Source of the DNA: Colwellia sp. | Lineage (GTDB): Bacteria; Pseudomonadota; Gammaproteobacteria; Enterobacterales; Alteromonadaceae | Assembly (NCBI GenBank): GCA_013215655.1 | Contig: JABSOX010000053.1 | Coordinates: 1 to 39,932, forward strand | Length of the DNA stretch: 39,932 nt | Reading direction: 5' to 3' | In this document: one piece after another, positions 26,787-39,845 of the stretch | Layout: each line of letters opens with the position of its first letter | Numbering within the stretch: the first letter of the stretch is position 1 | Translations under genes and position numbers: made by a program | Notes under the pieces: model-generated | What the model saw: the letters and a program-made list of their open reading frames with translations, nothing else | Databases searched by the model: none | Told to the model about the DNA's origin: nothing

Positions 26787-29531
26787 ATGAAAAAATTCAT
26801 TGTTCAATTTTCTGCCATATTATTTTTTGTATGTGCGACGTTTAATCTACAAGCTGCACAGCTTCCAAGTAATATCTCTCCTCAGCAGCTTGAACAATTT
26901 AAAAAATTAGCGCCTGCGCAACAAAAATCATTAGCACAAAGTATGGGCATTGATATTCGAACTATTCAGGCTCAACTTAATAAATCAAAATCTACAGGCG
27001 CAGATGAAGAACAACAATTACAGCAATATTATCCTCGAGGAACTGAATTTGATGAGTTAGGTAACCCTATATTACCAGATGACTTCTTAGAAGAAGAGGA
27101 AGATGACGGTGAACCTAAACCATTTGGTTACGATGTCTTTGCCAATGCTCCAATGACATTTGCTCCAACTATGGATATTGCCATTCCCGACGATTACGTA
27201 GTGGGTTCTGGTGATACCTTAAGTATTCAAATGTTTGGCAAAGAAAATCAAGACCATGAACTCACGGTATCTCGTGAAGGAAAAGTGGTTATTCCTGAGT
27301 TAGGACCATTCTCTGTATCTGGCTTGACCTTTGTTGAAATGAAAAAGTCGTTACGTAGTGCCATTAAAAATAAAGTATTGGGTGTTGATGTTGTTATTAC
27401 CCTTTCTCAATTAAGGGCAATGCGGGTATTTGTTTTAGGCGATGCTTATAAACCTGGACCATATGTACTTAGTGCACTATCAAGTATTACTCATGCACTT
27501 TTTTCTGCAGGCGGTATTAATGACATTGGTTCATTACGAAATATCCAATTAAAGCGTGCCGGCAAGCTTGTTACTACCCTAGATTTATATGACTTACTTA
27601 TTAAAGGTGATTCATCAAATGATTTAATGCTTAAATCTGGCGATGTTATTTTTGTAGCACCTGTAGGCGAACGTGTCACCATTGCAGGTGAAGTAAGACG
27701 CCCAGCCATTTATGAATTAGGCAATAATGAAAATTTTGAAGCGATTATTAAAATGGCGGGTGGCTTACTACCTTCTTCATACCCATCATCAACGGTAGTA
27801 GAACGTTATAATCAACAGAACTTAAGATCATTACTTAATATTGATTTATCAAAAGCTGAATATTTAAACCAATCAGTAAAAAATGGCGATTATGTTCGTG
27901 TAATGAAAACATCTGAGTTATTTGATCAATCGGTCACGGTTATTGGTGCGGTGTCACGCCCAGGTAAATATCAATGGCAAGCAGGACAAAGAGTTACCGA
28001 TTTACTACCCGATATAAATGCATACCTTTTGAATAATGCCGACCTCATGTATAGCGTTATTGTTAGACAAAAAGATGTTGGACGTAACATTGAAGTTCTA
28101 CAATTTGGATTGTTCAATGCTATTTCCGATGTAAATTCAGCGGATAACTTGTTATTACAACCTCAAGATAAAATTTTAGTTTTCTCTAATGTCGAAGTGC
28201 CTAGTATCGATATAACAACGCTTGATAGTTTAGCGTGGACTAGAGAAGAGCTGCTTGAAAAAGAAAAAGAAAAAGCTGAAAGTGATTATGAAGACCGACT
28301 CTTTTGGGCTAAATATGGTGAAGATGCGGAAGCAGTTAATATCTATCAAGAGCAAGATCTTGCTGATGAGACATTAAAGTTAGCGGCACAATCATTAGAA
28401 GAGTTGACTGATACTCGAGAAAGAGAACTTGATGTTGATGAACTTGGACTTTTTTCGCGAAAACGTTTATTAATACCTGTTATTCAGCAACTTACTCGTC
28501 AAGCTGCTTTTGGACAACCGCTACAGATTGTTGAAGTGGCGGGGGCGGTTAAGTTTCCAGGAGTATACCCATTAACAGCAAATAGCCAAGTAAAAAGCTT
28601 AGTGCTCGCTGCGGGCGGCTTATTAGAGTCTGCTTATTTAACTAAAGCTGAAGTTACACGATCCAGTGTTGACCAATTTAAAGCAAAACAATTGTTAGTG
28701 AATATTAACTTGCAACAAGCACTTAATGAAGATGTTGTGGCAAATATAAGCCTACAAAGTAAAGACAGATTGAATATTCATCATATCCCTGCATGGCAAG
28801 AAAACCATATTATTGAATTACGTGGTGAATTTCTATTTCCGGGTAAATATACTATTAAGCGTGGCGAAACATTGGCAGAACTTATCGTTCGTGTCGGCGG
28901 TTTCACAGAATTTGCTTATACGGACTCATCTTTCTTTACAAGAAAGGGCTTAAAGCAATTAGAATTGCAAAATATTATTAAAGTATCTGAGAACTTACGT
29001 AGTGAAATTGCTTCAAAAAGTTTAACGCAAGATGGTAGCTCACAAGGCATTGATTATGCACAGGCTAAACTTTTACTCGCCGACTTAACTAAAGTAACAC
29101 CGGTAGGTCGTTTAGTCGTTGATGTACCACGCATTATGTCTGATGAAAGCTTTGATGTTACTTTAGAAGATGGTGATATGCTGTATATCCCAGCTAAACA
29201 AAATTCAGTCAATGTTATAGGACAAGTGCAAGTCGCGACTTCTCACATATATCAAACGGGTTTATCCGCTTTTGATTATGTTAATTTAAGTGGAGGCGCT
29301 AAAAAGCAAGCGGATGATGGTCGTATTTATGTTATTAAGGCCAATGGTGCGGTAGAAATCCCTAATAACGGTAATTGGTTTTCACAAAATAATGGTGAAT
29401 TAGAACCTGGAGATACTGTAGTAGTACCGCTTGATTCTTATTACATGGAAGATTTAACCTTATGGACATCAGTTACACAAATCGTTTATAACGCTGCTAT
29501 TGCAATGAAAGCAGTAGGGATTTTCAATTAA
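26787..29531 (+). CDS. Multi-SLBB polysaccharide export outer-membrane protein (Wza-related)
   Basis: 914 residues, over twice the size of Wza (about 380). A signal peptide ends near residue 23 (LQAA before QLPS) with no lipobox cysteine, unlike Wza. A Poly_export domain begins near 133 (DYVVGSGDTLSIQMFG). About six SLBB repeats start near 212, 297, 383, 581, 675 and 808; cores such as VTIAGEVRRPAIYEL, VEVAGAVKFPGVYPL and IELRGEFLFPGKYTI recur. An acidic helical insert (about 475-575) separates repeats three and four. The C-terminal part includes a short hydrophobic end. It presumably exports a capsule or exopolysaccharide; a WecA-type gene follows. The symbol is withheld because wza and others differ in architecture. 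Confidence 0.88.
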   Translation: MKKFIVQFSAILFFVCATFNLQAAQLPSNISPQQLEQFKKLAPAQQKSLAQSMGIDIRTIQAQLNKSKSTGADEEQQLQQYYPRGTEFDELGNPILPDDFLEEEEDDGEPKPFGYDVFANAPMTFAPTMDIAIPDDYVVGSGDTLSIQMFGKENQDHELTVSREGKVVIPELGPFSVSGLTFVEMKKSLRSAIKNKVLGVDVVITLSQLRAMRVFVLGDAYKPGPYVLSALSSITHALFSAGGINDIGSLRNIQLKRAGKLVTTLDLYDLLIKGDSSNDLMLKSGDVIFVAPVGERVTIAGEVRRPAIYELGNNENFEAIIKMAGGLLPSSYPSSTVVERYNQQNLRSLLNIDLSKAEYLNQSVKNGDYVRVMKTSELFDQSVTVIGAVSRPGKYQWQAGQRVTDLLPDINAYLLNNADLMYSVIVRQKDVGRNIEVLQFGLFNAISDVNSADNLLLQPQDKILVFSNVEVPSIDITTLDSLAWTREELLEKEKEKAESDYEDRLFWAKYGEDAEAVNIYQEQDLADETLKLAAQSLEELTDTRERELDVDELGLFSRKRLLIPVIQQLTRQAAFGQPLQIVEVAGAVKFPGVYPLTANSQVKSLVLAAGGLLESAYLTKAEVTRSSVDQFKAKQLLVNINLQQALNEDVVANISLQSKDRLNIHHIPAWQENHIIELRGEFLFPGKYTIKRGETLAELIVRVGGFTEFAYTDSSFFTRKGLKQLELQNIIKVSENLRSEIASKSLTQDGSSQGIDYAQAKLLLADLTKVTPVGRLVVDVPRIMSDESFDVTLEDGDMLYIPAKQNSVNVIGQVQVATSHIYQTGLSAFDYVNLSGGAKKQADDGRIYVIKANGAVEIPNNGNWFSQNNGELEPGDTVVVPLDSYYMEDLTLWTSVTQIVYNAAIAMKAVGIFN

Positions 29532-29571
29532 ATCGATTTAATCTGTTTGAAGTGTTAACAAATCGTCAATT

Positions 29572-29603
29572 TTAGCCAGTATCTAGCGTTTAATACTGGC
29601 TAA
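29572..29603 (+). terminator. Hairpin after the SLBB export gene
   Basis: TTAGCCAGTAT at 29572-29582 pairs perfectly with ATACTGGCTAA at 29593-29603 across a 10-base loop, 41 bases after the stop. The 11-bp stem is good but the downstream T-run is weak (CTTGC), so termination is probable rather than clear. A TATAAT at 29620-29625 follows and could belong to a wecA promoter, though no -35 fits well. Confidence 0.45.
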
Positions 29604-29726
29604 CTTGCAAATACGTGTTTATAATAAGCGCGTTTATGAAGTTGAATATTGAAAATTTATTAAATTTAAATTTGTCAAAGACTTATCAGCTTTTGGTTTT
29701 GTGTTCTGTTGATTGGTGTCTTTTGA

Positions 29727-30779
29727 ATGGTTTTTCTCATACCCGCTTTATGTGTCGCTTTTTTTGCATCAATTTTTACTATTAAGGTATTATTACCTTT
29801 AGCTCCTCAAATCGGTCTTATTGACCTTCCAACAGAAAGAAAAAACCACGACGGTGCCATACCTCTAATTGGTGGTATTTCAATATTTACTGGGGTTTTA
29901 ATTGCTTCAACATTATTTATTGAACAAAGCCAGTTATTAAACTTATACCTTATATCATCTGCATTATTGGTCTTTATTGGCACTATGGATGATATTTATG
30001 ACTTAAATGTTACTCCTCGTATTATTTTTCAAGGTATTGTCGCTACTATCATGGTTTTTGGTGGTGGTGTTTATATTAGTGAATTCGGAAATCTACTCGC
30101 CTTTGGAGAAATCAATATTGGTTTCTACGGTATGATTTTCACTATGCTTGCGTGTATTACGGCAATTAATGCATTCAATATGATTGACGGTATTGATGGT
30201 CTAGCTGGGTCGATGAGTATTATCACTATATTATCCGTAGCAATTTTGACTTTACTTGCTAATTCAAACAGCGATGTTTTATTACCTTTAATACTTGTCG
30301 TTGCCATTTTACCTTATTTATTTTATAACGTGAGTACACGTAATCCGCGTGGTAAAAAAATCTTTATGGGTGATGCCGGTAGCATGTTTATGGGCTTAAC
30401 GGTTATTTGGTTACTTACTTTAGGTACACAAGATACTGGCGAACAAGCCGCAGCATTTAGACCGGTTACCGCTTTGTGGATTATAGCTGTGCCATTAATG
30501 GATATGTTTGCCATTATGATCCGTCGTATTCGTAAAGGTGTTTCACCTTTTCTAGCCGACAATGGCCATTTACATCATATCTGTATGCGTTTAGGTTTAA
30601 GCTCAAGACAATCATTATGGGTTATTAGTGGTATTGCTATATTTTTTGCTAGCTTTGGTATTTTAGGTGAATATTTTAATATTCCCGAATGGTTGATGTT
30701 GTCAATATTTGCCATTGCTTTTATCGGTTATTCATTTGCTATCCAGCATGCTTGGAAGTTTATTAAAGCGTTTAGATAA
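29727..30779 (+). CDS. wecA: WecA-type undecaprenyl-phosphate HexNAc-1-P transferase
   Basis: 350 residues with about ten membrane helices; WecA of E. coli has 367. This family moves a sugar-1-phosphate from a UDP-sugar to undecaprenyl phosphate, the first lipid-linked step for O-antigen, enterobacterial common antigen or capsule. Catalytic motifs are present: Asp88-Asp89 and Asp92 (DDIYD), NMIDGIDGLAG at 151-161, Asp216 (GDAGSM) and the sugar-binding HLHH at 281-284 (the HIHH box of WecA rather than MraY). No clear ribosome site precedes the ATG. It follows the SLBB exporter, so the two may serve one polysaccharide. Substrate specificity is inferred. Confidence 0.88.
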   Translation: MVFLIPALCVAFFASIFTIKVLLPLAPQIGLIDLPTERKNHDGAIPLIGGISIFTGVLIASTLFIEQSQLLNLYLISSALLVFIGTMDDIYDLNVTPRIIFQGIVATIMVFGGGVYISEFGNLLAFGEINIGFYGMIFTMLACITAINAFNMIDGIDGLAGSMSIITILSVAILTLLANSNSDVLLPLILVVAILPYLFYNVSTRNPRGKKIFMGDAGSMFMGLTVIWLLTLGTQDTGEQAAAFRPVTALWIIAVPLMDMFAIMIRRIRKGVSPFLADNGHLHHICMRLGLSSRQSLWVISGIAIFFASFGILGEYFNIPEWLMLSIFAIAFIGYSFAIQHAWKFIKAFR

Positions 30780-30899: not shown

Positions 30900-31295
30900 A
30901 TGCGTAAATATAAAGGCTTTACGATGATCGAGTTACTCATCGTTATCGTAATCTTGGGTCTGTTGGCTTCACTTGTTGCTCCTAAATTTTTCTCTCAACT
31001 TGGCACCGCCGAACGCGGTATAGCATCTGCGCAAATGAATGCATTTGAAACAGCATTGGATACTTTTCGTTTGGACATGGGCAGCTATCCCGCAAATTTA
31101 GAAGAGTTACGTAAAAGTGATAAACCTCGTTGGGATGGTCCATATTTACCAAAAGCCGTGCCACTTGACCCTTGGGGAAATGCGTATGTTTATACAACCC
31201 CAGGTGAAGATGGTAACCCATATAAAATAATGTCATTTGCTTCTGATGGTAAAGCGGGTGGTATTGATAATAACGAAGATATAGTACATAAATAA
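30900..31295 (+). CDS. gspG: Type II secretion major pseudopilin GspG
   Basis: 131 residues from ATG 30900 (a TTG at 30888 is also open but would lengthen the leader). A short basic leader, MRKYKG, ends at the prepilin peptidase site, followed by FTMIELLIVIVILGLLASLV with Glu at +5. The C-terminal calcium-binding region is diagnostic of GspG rather than type IV pilins: LDPWGNAYVY, then SFASDGKAGGIDNNEDI. GspG polymerises into the pseudopilus that acts as a piston. The stop shares one base with gspE (TAATG). In canonical clusters gspG follows gspF; here it leads the operon. Confidence 0.93.
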   Translation: MRKYKGFTMIELLIVIVILGLLASLVAPKFFSQLGTAERGIASAQMNAFETALDTFRLDMGSYPANLEELRKSDKPRWDGPYLPKAVPLDPWGNAYVYTTPGEDGNPYKIMSFASDGKAGGIDNNEDIVHK

Positions 31296-32947
31296 TGCAA
31301 TTAGGTCAGCTGTTAGTAGAAGAGTTTCAAGTAAGCGAAGATGATTTAAAACGGGCTGAAAGTTATCAAAGCCGTTTTGGTGGTCGTCTTGATCAAGTAC
31401 TGGTTAATATGGGTAGTTTACCTGACGATCAAGTATCTGTACTTTATAGTAAATATCTCGATTTACCTTTGCTAGAACTTTTTCAATGGCAAGATGTTGA
31501 TCCCGTAAGTATAGATAGCCAAGACCTATCATTATTACTTGATAATAAATGGGTGCCTCTGGCTATTAATGGCAGTGCTTGGACATTTGCTTGTCGCTTC
31601 CCGCTCGAGTTACAAGTACAAGAATGGCTAGTGCAGAAAAATATTGATGCCGAGATTTTTATTGCCGATGACTCTGACCTGCAATTATTAACTAATAAAT
31701 ACGAACAACTGAGCGCTTTAGATGATGGGCAAGAATTTGTTGGTAACGAAGAAGAGCGTCTTAGAGAACTAGCCACTGAAGCGCCAACCGTAAACTTACT
31801 TAATTCACTCATTTCTCGTGCTTTACGACAAGGCGCGTCTGATATGCATCTCGAACCTTATAATGGTCGATATCGTGCACGCTTTAGAGTTGATGGAGTA
31901 TTGCATGAAGCGGAAATATTATCTCCTCGAATGCAATTACCCATTGTAACTCGTCTCAAAATACTTGCTGGTATGGACATCGCTGAAAAACGCCGTCCCC
32001 AAGATGGCAAAATTGAAATGAAAATATCTAATCAAGAATTAGATATTCGTGTTTCTGCCTTACCACTAAACGATGGTGAGTCGATGGTATTGCGTTTTCT
32101 ACGCAAAGATAATGTGCAATATGATATGTCGGTATTGGGTTTGTCTGGCGATATTGAAACCATGATCCGTGAAGATATAAAAACCACCGCTGGTGTGGTT
32201 TTATTAACGGGTCCTACCGGTTCAGGTAAAACCACAACACTTTATACTTTTTTAAATGCGCTTAATAATGATGACGTTAAAATAATTACCTTAGAAGATC
32301 CTGTTGAGTATCAATTACCCGGTATCAATCAAGTACAAGTGAATAGTGATATTGGCTTCGACTTTGCTGCAGGTTTACGCAGTATTGTTCGTCAAGATCC
32401 CGATATTATTATGTTGGGTGAAATTCGCGATAAAGAAACCGCCCAAATTGCCCTGCAATCTGCATTAACGGGTCATCTGGTTTTTTCTACAGTCCATACT
32501 AATGATGCGGCAAGTGCTTATACACGTTTACTCGACTTAGGTGTCGAAGAGTTCTTACTCAACGCGGCTCTTGTTTCTATTGTTGCCCAACGGCTTGCGC
32601 GTAAAATATGTACTCAGTGCGCTGAACCACACCCTGAGGCAGCTAAACTCATAGAAAAATATCAATTACAGCTCCTTGCCGATAAATTTGAATTACCTGC
32701 GATAAAATTAATGCACGGTAAAGGCTGTGAACATTGTTCAAATTCCGGATATAAAGGTCGTATGGCGGTTATCGAATATTTACGTTGTGATGATGAAATC
32801 AAGGCAATGCCTAAAGATTCTGACTTTATTCCAAAAGCCAAAAAACATAATGCTCAAATGCAGCGACGAACTTTGTTAGAAGATGGTTTTTATAAAGCTA
32901 TATTAGGGCAAACCACGATTGATGAAGTTGTACGGATAGCCGGCTAA
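31295..32947 (+). CDS. gspE: Type II secretion ATPase GspE
   Basis: 550 residues. GspE powers pseudopilus assembly from the inner face of the membrane. An N-terminal MshEN/T2SSE_N-like domain (about 1-150) is followed by the ATPase core: Walker A GPTGSGKT at 306-313, DPVEYQLPGINQVQVN (Asp box) and RQDPDIIMLGEIRD (Walker B), with FSTVHTNDAA (His box). Tetracysteine zinc motif CxxC-n-CxxC lies at 439/442 and 478/481. It is a PilB/GspE-type assembly ATPase; the N-terminal half is divergent. The gene is coupled to gspG upstream and gspF downstream by TAATG overlaps. Confidence 0.93.
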   Translation: MQLGQLLVEEFQVSEDDLKRAESYQSRFGGRLDQVLVNMGSLPDDQVSVLYSKYLDLPLLELFQWQDVDPVSIDSQDLSLLLDNKWVPLAINGSAWTFACRFPLELQVQEWLVQKNIDAEIFIADDSDLQLLTNKYEQLSALDDGQEFVGNEEERLRELATEAPTVNLLNSLISRALRQGASDMHLEPYNGRYRARFRVDGVLHEAEILSPRMQLPIVTRLKILAGMDIAEKRRPQDGKIEMKISNQELDIRVSALPLNDGESMVLRFLRKDNVQYDMSVLGLSGDIETMIREDIKTTAGVVLLTGPTGSGKTTTLYTFLNALNNDDVKIITLEDPVEYQLPGINQVQVNSDIGFDFAAGLRSIVRQDPDIIMLGEIRDKETAQIALQSALTGHLVFSTVHTNDAASAYTRLLDLGVEEFLLNAALVSIVAQRLARKICTQCAEPHPEAAKLIEKYQLQLLADKFELPAIKLMHGKGCEHCSNSGYKGRMAVIEYLRCDDEIKAMPKDSDFIPKAKKHNAQMQRRTLLEDGFYKAILGQTTIDEVVRIAG

Positions 32948-34149
32948 TGGCAGTATTTACGTATAAAGCCTACGATAGTTCGGGTGGTAAAGTTGAAGGT
33001 CAACTAGAAGCAAACGATAAAGCTTTTGCATTTATCGAACTCAAAAAACAAGGGCTGATGCCATCTGAAGTTGAAGAATTGGCGGCGGCACAGAATAGCG
33101 TCTTTAGTTTTAATCAGAAAGTCTCTCTATCTGACTTAGAGTTTTTAACAGCAGAGCTCAGTTTATTACTAGAGTCTGGGGTTAGAATTGATCGCGGTAT
33201 CGACATCATCAAAAAAACCAAGGCTAAACCCGCCTTAGCAAAATTGTTAAATGATATAAGTAGAAACCTTAAAAAAGGTCGAAGTTTAGCGGAGTCATTC
33301 AAAAAACATGATGATATATTTGACCCACTTTATTGTAATTTAATTGAACTAGGTGAAGCTTCAGGAAATTTAAGTGAAATTTTTGACAGTTTAGCCAAAG
33401 ATCTTAAATTTCGTCGTGCGTTACAAAGAAAAATTGTTAGTTCATTAGCTTATCCTTCAGTGATCTTTTTTGTTTGTTTATTAAGTATCTTTTTTATTTT
33501 TAACTTTATAATTCCTAAGATGTCTTCGATGTTTGAAGGAGCAGACAATTTACCTTGGTATACCACTGCAATGCTGTCAACCAGTGAATGGATGATCCAA
33601 TATCAAGGGTTATTAGTCATTGGTATTGTCGCCGCTATTTTTGGTTTAGTCGCGGCAACCAAGCGGCCAGCGTTTGTTAAATGGTGGCAAAATGTCAGCT
33701 TAAAGTTACCTATTATCAAAACAGCGGTGATCACGGTTGAACGTATTCGCTTTAATAGCGGTTTAGCAATGATGATAAAGGCAGGAGTGCAGATTGATCG
33801 AGCTATTGGTTTATCGGCAGGCAATATTAAGAACCAACATCTAAAACGTGAAATAGATATTGTTAAAACGAAGATAAAAGGCGGTAGTGCTTTAACACCC
33901 GCATTAAAACAGACATCTCTTTATCCTGATTTTTATATCTCTTTACTCGAAGTGGGTGAAGAATCAGGTAACCTCGAACGAGTATTTGACGAAATTGCTA
34001 ATCGCTCACGACAAGAATTTGAAAGTTGGACAGAGAGCATGACCACGATGTTAGAGCCTTTAATGATCTTGTTTATGGGCGGCTTTGTTGGTGGCGTAGT
34101 GGTAATGATGCTACTGAGTATGGTTTCTATGAATGAAATTGGTTTTTAA
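32947..34149 (+). CDS. gspF: Type II secretion inner-membrane platform protein GspF
   Basis: 400 residues, the usual GspF/PilC length. GspF is the polytopic platform that links the ATPase to pseudopilin assembly. The duplicated T2SSF domain is clear: helical halves at about 65-190 and 270-390, with membrane segments near 165-190, 215-240 and 365-390. Repeat signatures include LTAELSLLLESGVRIDRGID, NLIELGEASGNLSEIFD and LLEVGEESGNLERVFDEIA. One base overlaps gspE. A 153-base gap containing a hairpin repeat follows before gspH, unlike the tight packing of the pseudopilin genes. Confidence 0.94.
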   Translation: MAVFTYKAYDSSGGKVEGQLEANDKAFAFIELKKQGLMPSEVEELAAAQNSVFSFNQKVSLSDLEFLTAELSLLLESGVRIDRGIDIIKKTKAKPALAKLLNDISRNLKKGRSLAESFKKHDDIFDPLYCNLIELGEASGNLSEIFDSLAKDLKFRRALQRKIVSSLAYPSVIFFVCLLSIFFIFNFIIPKMSSMFEGADNLPWYTTAMLSTSEWMIQYQGLLVIGIVAAIFGLVAATKRPAFVKWWQNVSLKLPIIKTAVITVERIRFNSGLAMMIKAGVQIDRAIGLSAGNIKNQHLKREIDIVKTKIKGGSALTPALKQTSLYPDFYISLLEVGEESGNLERVFDEIANRSRQEFESWTESMTTMLEPLMILFMGGFVGGVVVMMLLSMVSMNEIGF

Positions 34150-34185
34150 CAGAAGTTCTTCAAATCAAATAATATGTCATTGTAG

Positions 34186-34252
34186 GTCGAAGTTTGCCTA
34201 CATGGATGTAGGTACTTAGGTTATGTCGGGAACTAATAACCTGTACTTCGAC
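34186..34252 (+). repeat. Nested hairpin repeat between gspF and gspH
   Basis: GTCGAAGT at 34186-34193 pairs with ACTTCGAC at 34245-34252, and inside it AGGTTAT at 34218-34224 pairs with ATAACCT at 34236-34242. The 153-base gap has no ORF. It resembles a REP-like element and may terminate or stabilise the gspG-E-F transcript. Confidence 0.5.
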
Positions 34253-34302
34253 AAGTTTATAAATCCACGATGCGAGACAAGTACGGACTTTTAATAAGAT
34301 AA

Positions 34303-34824
34303 ATGAGCAATTCAATTTTTCGACAGACTAAAAGCAATCAAGGCTTCACCTTAATCGAACTAATGATCGTGATGTCTATCATCGCTTTGGTGATGTCGTT
34401 AGTAGGACCTATGACTATTCAGGGTTACGAAAAAATTCAAGCTAAAGAAGAGCAAATGACCTTGCAAAACTGGATGAAGGGTAATAGCTATCGCAGTTTT
34501 GCCACCAGTAAACCGGGAGTTATCACTTTGCAACAGAGCTCTGTTGTCTTTCGTTATCAATTAAACAAAGTCAACCAGGTCAACTCATCCAATACTCAAA
34601 ATACCAGCCAGTATCAATATGATGCAGTGTCGCAAGAGCCGAGCCTCAGCCAAGAAGAAAGTCCAATAATATCTGACTTGGAATTTCAATTCCTAACATT
34701 CACACCACAAACATTCGAAGTGAATACTTTTGGTTTGATCAAACCAACGACCATGACCGTATTGGTTAACGGCAAAGAACGAACCATTGATCTCGGTAAA
34801 AGAATTAACGGTAGCAATAAATGA
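34303..34824 (+). CDS. gspH: Minor pseudopilin GspH-like
   Basis: 173 residues. A 15-residue leader ends Gln-Gly before FTLIELMIVMSIIALVMSLV, the class III prepilin signal with Glu at +5. The rest is beta-rich, Gln/Ser-rich and weakly conserved, as for GspH. It is assigned to the GspH slot by order (before I, J, K) and size. GspH is a minor pseudopilin in the type II pseudopilus. The stop overlaps the gspI start (ATGA). Identity as H rather than another minor pseudopilin is an inference from position. Confidence 0.75.
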   Translation: MSNSIFRQTKSNQGFTLIELMIVMSIIALVMSLVGPMTIQGYEKIQAKEEQMTLQNWMKGNSYRSFATSKPGVITLQQSSVVFRYQLNKVNQVNSSNTQNTSQYQYDAVSQEPSLSQEESPIISDLEFQFLTFTPQTFEVNTFGLIKPTTMTVLVNGKERTIDLGKRINGSNK

Positions 34825-35288
34825 AAGCTATAAAGCGAACAAAAGGTTTCACCTTGTTAGAAGTACTGGTCGCTAGTGCCATTTTGTTTTCAACCATTGC
34901 CATTACCTCTGTAATTTTTAAGACTGCCTATGTCGCCTCAGAAAAAGCACAGAATAAAGTAGGCATAACCGCGGTTGTTCCTGCATTATTACCTATTATT
35001 CAACAAAGCATACGTGAACAAACGACTCAATTTGCAGATGAGCTAACCGGCAATGGCATCATTTGGGGGATTCATTACCGATGGCAAGCGCATGTAATTG
35101 CATTTAAATCACCGGCTGATAAATTTGATGTAGATACAACTCGCATGGAAAGTTATACAAAAAGATATAAAAAGTGGTCAGTTAATCTAGAGCTTTCAGA
35201 TAGTCATCAAGTAGAAACTAGCAAGCTCCCCAATTTCAATAAAGGTTTAGCTTATCAATATCATGAGCTTAGCTGGGTGACGCAATGA
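34821..35288 (+). CDS. gspI: Minor pseudopilin GspI-like
   Basis: 155 residues. The leader MKAIKRTKG ends before FTLLEVLVASAILFSTIAIT, with Glu at +5; the LLEVLVA core is typical of GspI. GspI with GspJ and GspK forms the tip complex that starts the pseudopilus. It is longer than usual for GspI (about 120-130) because of a C-terminal region rich in Tyr, Lys and Trp. Four-base ATGA overlaps join it to gspH and gspJ, implying coupled, matched translation of the tip proteins. Confidence 0.78.
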   Translation: MKAIKRTKGFTLLEVLVASAILFSTIAITSVIFKTAYVASEKAQNKVGITAVVPALLPIIQQSIREQTTQFADELTGNGIIWGIHYRWQAHVIAFKSPADKFDVDTTRMESYTKRYKKWSVNLELSDSHQVETSKLPNFNKGLAYQYHELSWVTQ

Positions 35289-36016
35289 TTAAAAAACTAA
35301 AGCAACGGAGCTTTTTTCACAGCCATCAAAGTGTAAAGGCTCAACATGGTTTTACGTTAATCGAACTGTTGATAGTGACTACTATCCTTAGCTTACTGAT
35401 GTTCACGGGCAGTTATACTTATAGTTTATTCACTAATAAATGGCAGGACGAACTAGGACAGTTTAATCAAGTTAATCAACAAGCAATGAGTTTTCATCGT
35501 ATTCAAACCATACTCACTAACATCATTCCTTACGCGATTTTAAAAGATAACAATCAACCCGCTTTTTTCTTTATTGGTGGTGAAGATAGTTTGTTAGCAA
35601 TTACTCATGATGGTCTTTTTGCAACCGATGCTGCTGAAATATTTCGATTATCTACCACTAAAGATACAAATGGTAAGTCATCTTTGTTATATCAAGCAAA
35701 GTCTTTGGCAATGGGTAATATTTTAACTGAATCTCAAAGCGTGGAATTTGACCATCAATTGGTATTGGCAACGCAGTTTGACGGTATTACATTTAACTAC
35801 TATGGCTGGTCTTCCTATCAAGATAAAAGGAATTATAGTTTAGAAAACCTTGTTGGTGAACATCAATGGTACAAAAAATTTTCAGGTTTAGACAAACAGC
35901 TGATCCCAGAGAAAGTTGAAATAATTTTAACTAAAGCTGACGAAAAGATGACCATTTTAGTTAATCTCGACAATAATACCGAGCGTTGGTTGTCTTCATA
36001 CTTCAATGAAGGTTAA
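35285..36016 (+). CDS. gspJ: Minor pseudopilin GspJ-like
   Basis: 243 residues. The prepilin leader is long, 22 residues ending His-Gly, before FTLIELLIVTTILSLLMFTG with Glu at +5. Downstream is a beta-rich domain of about 200 residues, in the size range of GspJ. GspJ binds GspI and GspK at the pseudopilus tip. The start overlaps gspI by ATGA. The basic, His/Gln-rich leader is longer than the roughly 6-10 residues usual in type II pseudopilins. The assignment rests on size, order and leader. Confidence 0.78.
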   Translation: MIKKLKQRSFFHSHQSVKAQHGFTLIELLIVTTILSLLMFTGSYTYSLFTNKWQDELGQFNQVNQQAMSFHRIQTILTNIIPYAILKDNNQPAFFFIGGEDSLLAITHDGLFATDAAEIFRLSTTKDTNGKSSLLYQAKSLAMGNILTESQSVEFDHQLVLATQFDGITFNYYGWSSYQDKRNYSLENLVGEHQWYKKFSGLDKQLIPEKVEIILTKADEKMTILVNLDNNTERWLSSYFNEG

Positions 36017-36020
36017 TGCT

Positions 36021-37232
36021 ATGAAAGTGAATGATAAAAGTAGTATGACAGCATCAATTAGTAAGTTGCACATTAGTAGTGAAGGTCGAAGAGATAGAAA
36101 AAGCATACTTAAGTTAGCCTCATTAACAAAACAAGGCGGTATTGCACTCATTCAAATACTGATCATTGTTGCTATATTAACTACCGTTGCACTATATATT
36201 TCAAAATCTGCTAAACAGCAAGTACAAATGGCACAATGGGCGGTTGACCGAACCTACGCTGCAGTATCTGTGCATAGTGCAGAAGCCGATGTGCTGTTTG
36301 AAATGCTCACTAGTACTTGGGGAGCGAATACTATCGCCAGTTTGACAACAAGTGAAGAGGTTGGCACTGAATTCGATTTTAGCCATATACTTAACTCAGA
36401 CATAGGCTCAGGAATCAGTGAAGACAGTAGGCAACAAGCCAATAATAATCAGTCATTATTGGTACAAAATACTCCGGCTCAAAACGAAACATTCACTAAC
36501 ATAAATAACCAACAACTAACCGTTATTGCTGTACCATGGAATTTATACAACCAAGCCTTTCAATTAAATAACAAAGTCACTGTACAACTGCAAGACCAAG
36601 CAGGGTTAATTAATTTACATCACCCAGCCGTTGGAATTGTCGCTGACAGACTGCGTTACCAAGGCTTAAGTAGTGATGAAGCGCTACGTGCCCAAGCTAC
36701 CTTGTTAGATTGGCAAGATGGTGATAGTATTCGTCGAAATTATGGCGCTGAGAGTGACAAGAATACCCGTAATCATGTAATGCCAGACAAACGTGAATGG
36801 TTGTTGCAAAAAACGATAACCGCCGAACAATTGCAGTTGATTACTGATGACTTTACGCTTTATGGTGCAGGACATTTAAATTTATTGACTAGTCCTAAAA
36901 GTATTTTAGCGTCGCTAAGTAATGATGCTGTGGCAGATGAAATTGTTAAACGCCGAGAGCAATATGCTCAGCAAATGCATTTGGGTATTGATCCGTTAAC
37001 GGGCCAGTTTCAATCAAATGATAATAATAGTGATGTAAACAAACAACAGCTTGTACAATTGATGCGTATTTCGGATGAAGTTGATGTTTATTTTGTGCCG
37101 AGCCGCACCTTAAAAATAACCTTAATTGCTGAGCAAGGTGAAGCGAGAGTAAAAAAACAAGTGATTGTTAAATTCACTCCCCATACACAGAGTGTTTATT
37201 TACCTTTTAATATTATGCAAACAAAAGGATAA
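36021..37232 (+). CDS. gspK: Minor pseudopilin GspK-like, long leader
   Basis: 403 residues from ATG 36021 (GAAGG eight bases upstream); an in-frame ATG at 36006 lies inside gspJ. After an unusually long 40-residue basic leader ending Gly-Gly comes IALIQILIIVAILTTVALYI, where +5 is Gln: GspK characteristically lacks the +5 Glu. The globular part carries the GspK marks LQDQAGLINLHHPAVG and TLLDWQDGDS. GspK caps the pseudopilus tip. A 109-base gap with a 31-bp repeat follows before gspL. The start is the least certain point; an even longer leader is possible. Confidence 0.85.
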   Translation: MKVNDKSSMTASISKLHISSEGRRDRKSILKLASLTKQGGIALIQILIIVAILTTVALYISKSAKQQVQMAQWAVDRTYAAVSVHSAEADVLFEMLTSTWGANTIASLTTSEEVGTEFDFSHILNSDIGSGISEDSRQQANNNQSLLVQNTPAQNETFTNINNQQLTVIAVPWNLYNQAFQLNNKVTVQLQDQAGLINLHHPAVGIVADRLRYQGLSSDEALRAQATLLDWQDGDSIRRNYGAESDKNTRNHVMPDKREWLLQKTITAEQLQLITDDFTLYGAGHLNLLTSPKSILASLSNDAVADEIVKRREQYAQQMHLGIDPLTGQFQSNDNNSDVNKQQLVQLMRISDEVDVYFVPSRTLKITLIAEQGEARVKKQVIVKFTPHTQSVYLPFNIMQTKG

Positions 37233-37239
37233 AACGCAG

Positions 37240-37270
37240 GTCGACACGAACGAAGTGAGGTTTGACAAAA
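37240..37270 (+). repeat. 31-bp repeat after gspK (copy A)
   Basis: It begins GTCGACACGAACGAAGTGAG and ends TTTGACAAAA, eight bases after the gspK stop. It matches 26 of 31 bases with the segment at 39851-39881, which sits in the same position after the last gene of the cluster. The ends can pair partly (GTCGA with TTGAC), and CAC..GTG pair inside. Confidence 0.7.
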
Positions 37271-37341
37271 TGTGAACCAAAGAAATGGTTTAAATTTAGC
37301 ACCAAAAGCAGCAAAACAAGAGTATAAAGAATAATAATATT

Positions 37342-38679
37342 ATGACAAAAGCTTCAACTAACGTATTTCATCAACGTTATCAAAAATTACTGTGTAAAAT
37401 AACGGGGTATTACGCAAATAATATCTTATATCGCTTTGTTTATGCTGAGTCAGGTATAAGGTTAATGCCTGCTTCGTTAGATGCTTTTGCTCCATACTTG
37501 TTAATTATTGCTAAACCTTACTATCAAGAACAATTAAAAAACTATCCTATTGAAAACAAAAAAGAGCTAAAAAAATTATTAGCGTTAGAGTTTTCTCAAA
37601 CTCAGTTTATTTACAATATTATCCCTTCTAATACATCACTCGGTGATAAGCATAATGATGCTCAGAGCCGGGTTAATATTTGGCAGTTAGATAAAAATGA
37701 TCTCAAAGCTAAAATACCTAGTGTAAAAGTTATACTGCCCGAATCATTTTTATTGGCATTAACGCTGGATAATAATCAAATATTACAACAAGATTGTTTA
37801 AGTCCTAGTGATGACCTGTCTAATAAAAAGCAAAATCAACCACAAAGTCAAACAAAAAAATTGTTTGTTGCTGCAGCAAATAAGGCCACAGTTTCTGCGT
37901 TAAATAGCCCGTTAATAAACAACTTTGAACGTTTTTGTCATAGTTTAGGGTTAAGTTATGACGTAAAGGAAAACTCTGTAGCAGAATCTTCGGTTTATCA
38001 AGAGTCTACTGCCGAGCAATTATCTGAAAGACTAATAAACGGCTTAAGTAAATGTCCTCTTAGCTTATCTACTAATTTCTTAGTCCAAGAAACCAAGAAA
38101 AAAGACACACCCATAGTAAAAGCGATAGCGCTTCCTATTGTGGCAGTTTTTACTATTTATTTAGGTATAACTTCGGCTTGGCTATATTGGCAGCAGCAGA
38201 GTTTAATGTCAGAAGTAGCGGCGCAAAAGACGGATGTAAATCAAGCATTACAAATACAAGAACAGTTTATTGCTTATCAACAACAATTTGCACTACTAGA
38301 TGACTTTTCAAATCAACAGCAGGCAAGGTCTTTATTTTGGATAATATGGTCAGAACTTATTGAAGATGCTCAAATTAGTACCATACGTTATATCAATAAT
38401 CGCTATGTATTAATTGGGAAAACAAATAAAGTCGCTAAAGTCAAAGACGAAGATAAAGACAACGTAGTGGCTGATCCAACAGAGAAACCCGCGAGTATCA
38501 TTTTTAAAGCGACGGCTTATCTTGAAAAATTAATTCAACAGCCAGGAGTAATAGACGCCAAGTTTGATTCTTCAGTGCGAATATCCAAAACCCATGAAAG
38601 CTTCACTATTAGTTTTTTAATTGACGCTAGCGTGCTCAATAGTCATTTATTGGCCGACAATAATAAAGGCAGCAAATAA
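37342..38679 (+). CDS. gspL: GspL-like secretion assembly platform protein
   Basis: 445 residues. GspL recruits GspE to the membrane and pairs with GspM. A cytoplasmic N-terminal domain (about 1-265, including a Gln/Asn/Lys-rich stretch near 160-175) is followed by one membrane helix at about 268-290 (IALPIVAVFTIYLGITSAWL) and a periplasmic region with a short coiled coil and a ferredoxin-like end. This is the GspL layout, but sequence resemblance is weak by eye, so position between K and M carries the call. The stop overlaps gspM by one base (TAATG). A MshI/PilM-PilN relation is an alternative. Confidence 0.7.
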   Translation: MTKASTNVFHQRYQKLLCKITGYYANNILYRFVYAESGIRLMPASLDAFAPYLLIIAKPYYQEQLKNYPIENKKELKKLLALEFSQTQFIYNIIPSNTSLGDKHNDAQSRVNIWQLDKNDLKAKIPSVKVILPESFLLALTLDNNQILQQDCLSPSDDLSNKKQNQPQSQTKKLFVAAANKATVSALNSPLINNFERFCHSLGLSYDVKENSVAESSVYQESTAEQLSERLINGLSKCPLSLSTNFLVQETKKKDTPIVKAIALPIVAVFTIYLGITSAWLYWQQQSLMSEVAAQKTDVNQALQIQEQFIAYQQQFALLDDFSNQQQARSLFWIIWSELIEDAQISTIRYINNRYVLIGKTNKVAKVKDEDKDNVVADPTEKPASIIFKATAYLEKLIQQPGVIDAKFDSSVRISKTHESFTISFLIDASVLNSHLLADNNKGSK

Positions 38680-39248
38680 TGGCTTCATTGAAACAGCAAC
38701 TTCAACAACACAGCAACGCATTATTGTTAATTAGCGCTTTAATTGTAGTGAAATTCATTGTCATGCCCACTGTTCAATGGCAAGACGATACACTAGTGAG
38801 TAATGCATTACTTGAAAAACGCTTAAACAAATCAGCATTTGCCATAGATAAAAAAACACAAATGCAGCAAAGTCTGGCTCAATCAACCAATCAACTTAAA
38901 AAAATACAACAATTGACTTTTGATCATCAGGCAACGAATCGATTTCAGTTAAATCAGCAAAAGTACTTTGAAAAATTATTTGAAGAGTTCCAAATAGAAA
39001 TTACACAATTGGTGTGGCAAGCGGCAATTCCTCGTAATCAGTGGCTGCTCACTCAGTATGAAGTGAAATTACGCATTAAGGGGGCACTTGTTAACTTACA
39101 GAAATTGCAGGCGGCACTTGAAAGTCAACCGCAATGGTTTGCTAGTAATAGCTTTAATTATCGGTTAGAAAAACTTCGTAAAAACAATCTTGGCAAAGTG
39201 ACGGGTCGAATGAGTATCACTATGTATATGCAACAAGAAAGTAAATAA
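38679..39248 (+). CDS. gspM: GspM-like secretion assembly platform protein
   Basis: 189 residues. A short cytoplasmic tail and one membrane helix at about 13-30 (ALLLISALIVVKFIVMPTV) lead into a helical coiled-coil segment (about 40-95) and a small alpha/beta domain ending MSITMYMQQESK. This layout is shared by GspM, PilO and MshJ. It overlaps the gspL-like gene by one base, which matches the L-M pairing in type II systems. Assignment is by topology and location; PilO/MshJ-type identity is the alternative. Confidence 0.68.
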   Translation: MASLKQQLQQHSNALLLISALIVVKFIVMPTVQWQDDTLVSNALLEKRLNKSAFAIDKKTQMQQSLAQSTNQLKKIQQLTFDHQATNRFQLNQQKYFEKLFEEFQIEITQLVWQAAIPRNQWLLTQYEVKLRIKGALVNLQKLQAALESQPQWFASNSFNYRLEKLRKNNLGKVTGRMSITMYMQQESK

Positions 39249-39263
39249 AGAGTAAAGTAAATT

Positions 39264-39845
39264 ATGATAAAACCCATTACTCTGATCACACTAGCATTAA
39301 GCCTACTCTATATCGTTATTGATTTTACGGGACGCTTTCTTATAGATGGTCAACAATCAAATAATACCATGGCAAATTTAACCATTAACGATCAGCTGCA
39401 ATTACCGCAATTAAATGCCGTTCAGCAATTAAAACTGACTAATGCCTATGGTTATTATCAACAAGATGAAAAAAAGATAAAAGTTGTTGAAAAGGTGATT
39501 GGCTTAACCGATGAGCAAAAACTGGCGCAGCAAGGTGAATTAACTGAATTTTACGATGGCGATTGGCGATATCGCTTAATCGCCATTATATCTCCTGATG
39601 GTAGTGAGCAAGCCTTAAAATCACCGATGGCGTTATTATCAGCTCGAAATGTTAAAGATACCGCAGCTAAGTCTAGCCAAAATAATAACAAAGATGCCAA
39701 GTCAAAGAAACTGACGAAAATTAGCCATGGTGCCAAATTAGGCTTGTATGACGTGACTATTACTAATACCAAACAAGTAAGTTTTCAGTTGAAACAAAGA
39801 AAAATAACCCTGTTAATGTATAAACCTAAAAATAAAAACGCTTAA
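39264..39845 (+). CDS. Small bitopic protein in the GspC/PilP/MshK position
   Basis: 193 residues with one N-terminal membrane helix (about 4-22) and a polar periplasmic domain ending in beta strands (LGLYDVTITNTKQVSFQL) plus a Lys/Asn-rich tail. I do not recognise the family with confidence. Its place right after the GspM-like gene and its topology match GspC, PilP or MshK, inner-membrane proteins that contact the secretin. Residues 135-152 are Ser/Asn/Lys-rich and linker-like. A GAGTAAAG ribosome site precedes the ATG. The predicted secretin would lie past the window edge. Confidence 0.55.
   Translation: MIKPITLITLALSLLYIVIDFTGRFLIDGQQSNNTMANLTINDQLQLPQLNAVQQLKLTNAYGYYQQDEKKIKVVEKVIGLTDEQKLAQQGELTEFYDGDWRYRLIAIISPDGSEQALKSPMALLSARNVKDTAAKSSQNNNKDAKSKKLTKISHGAKLGLYDVTITNTKQVSFQLKQRKITLLMYKPKNKNA

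Follow-up and report, generated by a model that had tools for sequence, protein, structure and literature searches.

A G-first type II secretion-like cluster in Colwellia and its probable link to an Slr4-family S-layer protein

Ten genes on one contig and a secretin on another

The window analyzed here is one whole contig (JABSOX010000053.1, here C115; 39,932 nucleotides) from the genome of a Colwellia sp., which amounts to 5.56 Mb in 161 contigs. Ten open reading frames (ORFs), all on the + strand between 30900 and 39845, encode the G-E-F-H-I-J-K-L-M-N series of a type II secretion-like machine (Table 1), and the contig ends 87 bases past the last of them. Together with a secretin (D) and a gene for an Slr4-family surface-layer (S-layer) protein, both on contig C123, this cluster very probably forms the genome's second type II secretion system (T2SS), dedicated to exporting that Slr4-family protein as its one abundant cargo. 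Six of the nine gene junctions overlap or share one base and the remaining ones span 15-153 bases. In relatives with unbroken contigs the usual order is G-E-F-H-I-J-K-(L-M-N)-D, most of them carrying D after the N-position gene on the same contig, with L077 and L078, where D comes after H, as exceptions. Given ten ORFs on one strand and the same order in relatives, the cluster is not a product of chance.

At 126.6 bits the GspG protein lies above its equivalog cut-off of 88.85 bits, and it has a Pfam T2SSG match; its putative calcium-binding C-terminus fits the full-length family match. GspE, with both Walker motifs (A and B) and two CxxC pairs, and GspF pass the Pfam cut-offs and miss the equivalog cut-offs (510 vs. 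630 bits for GspE, 305 vs. 424 bits for GspF), and are therefore divergent. The N-methyl (prepilin) motif is present in H, I and J. No Pfam or NCBIfam model was matched above cut-off by L, M or N, so they were named by position, by size and by comparing profiles; an ORF of 318-427 aa occupies the gspL position in 45 of the 46 loci tried of the GspE clade described below.

Table 1. Features of the cluster on C115 (window positions) and of the adjoining genes on C123 (locus L005)
Feature	Position	Strand	Evidence or remark
gspG, major pseudopilin	30900..31295	+	start set at ATG 30900; TIGR01710 126.6 bits, PF08334 E 1.8e-27
gspE, assembly ATPase with N-terminal MshEN-type domain	31295..32947	+	PF00437 E 1.4e-123, PF05157 E 1.4e-8
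gspF, inner-membrane platform protein	32947..34149	+	PF00482 E 7.9e-55; TIGR02120 305 bits, under cut-off 424
gspH-like minor pseudopilin	34303..34824	+	N_methyl motif; BLAST matches in same position of relatives
gspI-like minor pseudopilin	34821..35288	+	N_methyl motif; BLAST matches in same position of relatives
gspJ-like minor pseudopilin	35285..36016	+	N_methyl motif; BLAST matches in same position of relatives
gspK-like minor pseudopilin	36006..37232	+	NF037980 E 3.8e-6, PF21687 E 9e-4, both under cut-off
gspL-position protein, no family match	37342..38679	+	named by position
gspM-position protein	38679..39248	+	best profile match Aeromonas SpsM-position protein, hhalign 87%
gspN/C-position protein, MshK/PilP-like	39264..39845	+	hhalign profile matches
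Intergenic repeat, end of contig C115	39846..39932	+	same repeat closes contig C123
Secretin gene, contig C123	L005:17586-19604	-	PF00263 E 4e-40
Slr4 gene	L005:15510-17264	-	PF19526 E 4e-24, cut-off passed; directly after secretin

Four secretins were found in the genome, on C71, C104, C90 and C123, of which we take the one on C104 to be PilQ and the one on C90 to be MshL from their neighbor genes. The C123 secretin gene begins 281 bases from the contig end, reading inward, so that C123, when reversed, runs from the shared repeat through a lipoprotein secretin to the Slr4 gene. A 22-base word from the last bases of the window, AACGCAGTGAGGCTCGACAAAA, occurs at three exact places genome-wide, once at the end of C115 and twice at the end of C123; allowing one mismatch adds six further places, including one at the C123 end and one near the end of C28. 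The C123 end is a 65-78 base tandem array, and the assembly was probably interrupted by a repeat array lying between N and D. The lipobox cysteine, Cys22, is invariant in all 16 aligned secretins, which makes self-targeting of the secretin to the outer membrane plausible.

An earlier reading made from the window's letters alone (the sequence-only reading) had described ten co-directional genes, G first and no D inside the window, which the ORFs and family searches confirm. It had also suggested that a secretin may follow, and one was indeed found next to the shared repeat on C123, as on a single contig in most relatives.

A separate GspE clade beside the canonical system

A canonical T2SS locus lies elsewhere in the same genome, on C71, in the order C-D-E-F-G-H-I-J-K-L-M (D, E and G by family search, the others named by position). 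Its D, E, F and G are homologous to those of the window machine, whereas its order is C-first and that of the window is G-first with D last. The two GspE proteins share 44% identity over 405 residues, and the N-terminal part of the canonical one is not alignable to MshEN. In an ATPase tree of 103 rows built by a quick method, the window GspE falls in a 52-row clade apart from canonical GspE (Shimodaira-Hasegawa-like approximate likelihood ratio test, SH-aLRT, 100). When 59 of those rows and Aeromonas SpsE were put through a more careful tree, the 32 sampled clade members came together at 100/100. Joining the clade with canonical GspE was rejected by the approximately unbiased (AU) test (p 0.013); the groups compared in these tests were defined with the tree already in view. 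The nearest outgroup of the clade (100/97) is L103, a G-E-F...D locus of Candidatus Magnetominusculus (Nitrospirota), with no Slr4-type match within the fetched stretch, which stops about 2 kb after D.

An MSHA-like (mannose-sensitive hemagglutinin) type IV pilus variant, instead of a secretion system, is suggested by several features: the MshEN domain of the window GspE, an AU test that does not reject the clade joined with the genome's own MshE (p 0.19; this MshE is a single long branch), and the N-position profile, which in hhalign matches the own MshK-position protein at 80%, next to 87% for Aeromonas Sps orf2 and 2% for canonical GspC (the targets of the M and N comparisons were single sequences). 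We regard this variant as very improbable, as the major pilin passes the cut-off as a GspG equivalog, the cluster is associated with a secreted S-layer protein across its clade (see below), and a separate locus, which from its gene order we presume to be MSHA-type, lies on C90. As an MSHA pilus proper the window cluster was rejected, since it has no MshA-type pilin or mshIJKL set and only its N-position protein resembles MshK. The parallel that the sequence-only reading had drawn between the L-M-C ending and the MSHA pilus thus stands for the N-position protein; the ending itself is not special to MSHA, because secretin-last E-F-G-...-D loci are common also in Xanthomonadales, Pseudomonas and Methylococcaceae.

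Slr4 as the candidate cargo

The gene directly after the C123 secretin is a 584-codon ORF with a likely start 13 codons in and an N-terminus that, read by eye, resembles a signal peptide. Pseudoalteromonas tunicata has Slr4 as its S-layer protein, and its slr4 mutant is without S-layer (PMC7821379, in its passages on Slr4). The same passages place slr4 directly downstream of the T2S genes G, E, F, K and D, report that the cargo has a Sec signal, suggest that the T2SS is a dedicated one and count Colwellia among the carriers of Slr4 (Ali et al., 2020, PMC7821379). The slr4 neighborhood is shown again in the part of the AnnoView paper concerned with it (PMC11094555). Because this arrangement was described by Ali et al. 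(2020), the present locus is not new but a further instance of a pairing already published in marine bacteria. The Sps system of Aeromonas, treated below, is a parallel of still earlier date. We see no essential difference from P. tunicata, apart from the spread over two contigs here and the repeat array between N and D.

We asked how constant this pairing is in a set of loci chosen by secretin or ATPase and not by Slr4. The set comprised 47 of the 51 family genomes with a C123-type secretin, nine GspE-bearing loci outside the family from a draw across the order, and 80 named loci picked by secretin among the matches listed. The order draw gave a GspE match at E ≤ 1e-140 in at least 20 of 394 genomes, and a class-wide draw gave one at E ≤ 1e-130 in at least 1 of 369, namely the own genome only (three candidates scored per genome in both). 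An Slr4-type protein accompanies 49 of the 51 clade loci, the window excluded, vs. 1 of the 87 loci outside the clade, that of Aeromonas; L108 and L167 are the same place, leaving 86 distinct outside loci, several of them shortened by contig ends. It lies after D in 45 of the 51 and before G in four. Of the 49 loci, 45 have a match to an Slr4 hidden Markov model (HMM) and 11 to a subfamily HMM, some to both; 26 and 7 proteins of the same set served as seeds for these HMMs, and the seeds' own scores are therefore not independent. At the level of the family, Slr4 occurs in 36 of 118 genomes and the C123-type secretin in 51 of 118 (E ≤ 1e-60), with 35 of the 36 Slr4-bearing genomes having both.

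A second T2SS of general use, with several cargoes among which Slr4 would be just one, or a mere neighbor, could draw on the related secretin-last loci elsewhere, of which one in 87 has an Slr4-type protein; the neighbor type is nearly constant within the clade, even at the four loci where it is placed before G, and we consider this explanation improbable. The dedicated machine proposed by the sequence-only reading is instead supported, because a secretin follows and a separate canonical T2SS exists whose GspE belongs to another clade. The probable cargo, which that reading had left unnamed, can now be given as Slr4.

Several observations weigh against a dedicated Slr4 exporter. One genome (G081) has Slr4 without the secretin at E ≤ 1e-60, and among the 51 genomes with the secretin, 16 gave no Pfam match to Slr4 (nine lie outside the ATPase clade, six have a divergent relative, and one, G106, was not fetched). 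All three same-genus genomes listed are without Slr4 and without the secretin. The two clade loci lacking an Slr4-type match are L077, a cluster with D moved and no Slr4-type neighbor, and L078, whose contig stops at D. The gspL-position protein belongs here as well, its homology to GspL being undetectable by profile comparison. The C115-C123 linkage is proposed from repeat, gene order and orientation rather than from reads, and a one-mismatch copy of the word lies 92 bases from the C28 end, pointing out of C28. Transport of Slr4 by this machine is likewise inferred, from sequence and the conserved pairing.

By analogy to other T2SS, Slr4 would cross the inner membrane by Sec and be taken up from the periplasm by the M/N/secretin complex. 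The GspG pseudopilus, built by GspE on GspF, would then push it through the secretin, which, being a lipoprotein, may need no separate pilotin to arrive at the outer membrane, and the exported protein would form a lattice on the cell. The pseudopilins would be processed by the one prepilin peptidase detected in the genome, whose gene on C64 lies about 2 kb away from that of the presumed PilB ATPase. Cells secrete S-layer proteins in very large quantities, and a T2SS paired with one cargo type in about 50 loci makes a good system for the long-standing question of substrate recognition.

Carriage on plasmids was dropped as an option, as tblastn of GspE against plasmids at E ≤ 1e-100 returned only two records at 37-39% identity. 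PDB sequence searches gave one match at E 0.99 for the own Slr4 and none for the Aeromonas protein treated below. At least two Slr4 paralogues follow the secretin in L038, L046, L071 and L080, and in L040 and L042 the Slr4 gene is in two ORFs, either a broken gene or a sequencing error.

Aeromonas, cargo variants and the c-di-GMP site

A clustered T2SS is described as indispensable for the S-layer of A. salmonicida (PMC10765051 in part, citing Noonan and Trust, 1995). A GspE match at ≤ 1e-106 was found in one of 37 genomes (G856) of the genus of A. molluscorum 848, at a locus (L166) that runs ATP-binding cassette (ABC)-2-type permease, E (551), F (399), G (144), H (123), more ORFs, M (198), orf2, D, a 465-aa protein and ABC ATPase, the permease and the ABC ATPase being named by eye. 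The lengths of E, F, G, H and M equal those tabulated for A. hydrophila AH-1 in the relevant part of PMC4413209, and those of the other ORFs, called mechanically, differ. The 465-aa protein, in the position of VapA, passes PF19526 (56.7 vs. 25 bits, E 3e-15) and scores 68 bits with the local Slr4 HMM over nearly its full length, with none of 200 shuffles above 0. Judged by these profile matches, the Aeromonas protein in the S-layer position is an Slr4 homologue. The homology was not seen stated in the literature passages on Slr4, and the Pfam model already implies it. The link would let results from either system be tested in the other.

The likeness extends to the machine, since the Aeromonas Sps system, in the passages of PMC4413209 that describe it, is a dedicated T2SS among polysaccharide genes that ends M-orf2-D-S-layer gene, and our M and N profiles match this locus best. 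The differences are that E leads there, with G after F, and that SpsE stands outside the Slr4 ATPase clade. It groups with L059-L061 (100/98), which counts against a simple shared origin with the Slr4 clade, and a strict clade of Slr4-type GspE and SpsE was rejected (AU p 0.008). The loci L059-L061 themselves carry, divergently upstream of E, a signal-peptide protein of 566-567 aa (L059:2776-4476, - strand; L060:15345-17045, + strand; L061:2608-4311, - strand) with no Pfam match and an hhalign score to Slr4 of 92.7% over 108 columns, possibly another S-layer family.

Seven clade loci (L051, L052, L055, L056, L057, L079 and L083) hold a secreted protein of 571-653 aa whose mature start lies near AGTEACFE, after D in L056, L079 and L083 and before G in the other four. 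Five of the seven (L056, L079, L051, L057, L083) were scanned against Pfam without an Slr4 match, and for the remaining two the family genome search gave no PF19526 match in their genomes (G109, G078). The profile of this GTEACF subfamily can be aligned to Slr4 in a 115-column stretch close to the C-terminus (hhalign 98.5%, E 2.5e-15), vs. 11% for a direct comparison with the Aeromonas protein. Another divergent relative, in L068, matches the Slr4 HMM at E 7e-12 and has no Pfam match. A structure model of the R. baltica cargo (L083) was left unused, as its mean predicted local distance difference test score was 32 from a single sequence. One tentative and rather doubtful view is that a single S-layer-export lineage has two branches, the Slr4-type loci and Aeromonas Sps/VapA, with machine and cargo co-inherited, and that the C-terminal ~115 residues shared by Slr4 and GTEACF proteins would be a handle for export or lattice assembly; we lowered our expectation of it slightly because of the 11% direct match.

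A further system, the NpdA-linked T2SS of Paracidovorax and its kin, is alike in that the gsp cluster ends in D, followed by a secreted protein of ~500 aa (PMC10765051, in its passages on NpdA). The corresponding Acidovorax locus (L108/L167) has a 501-aa protein after D, a candidate NpdA, which was rejected as an Slr4 homologue for want of an Slr4 profile match; plain BLAST against the own Slr4 gave 21% at E 0.002. The Acidovorax ATPase sits in the tree with Xanthomonadales and Pseudomonas loci, unlike the window GspE, and a strict clade of Slr4-type GspE that takes in the Acidovorax protein was rejected (AU p 0.045).

The MshEN domain raised control of export by cyclic dimeric guanosine monophosphate (c-di-GMP) as a candidate. 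The key motif residues are R9, G40 and Q61, and XpsE is likewise without the c-di-GMP residues (PMC5013675, in its passages on MshEN). Among the 52 clade rows, G40 and Q61 are kept in none and R9 (as R or K) in six, and the window row keeps 8 of the 14 scored positions. Because the binding residues are lost, such control was rejected for the clade. The Acidovorax ATPase (L108) keeps 13 of the 14 positions, and Aeromonas SpsE (L166:1503-3158) keeps the motif by eye, unlike the Slr4 clade; both might bind c-di-GMP. The additions made here are modest and consist of the Aeromonas link, the Pfam-unseen Slr4-like subfamily in seven loci and the loss of the c-di-GMP site.

As to the surroundings of the cluster, an SLBB/Wza-like export protein and a WecA-like transferase (by eye) lie directly upstream of gspG (window 26787-30779), and sulfotransferase and glycosyltransferase genes lie beyond slr4 on C123. 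A similar polysaccharide-gene setting is found in some relatives.

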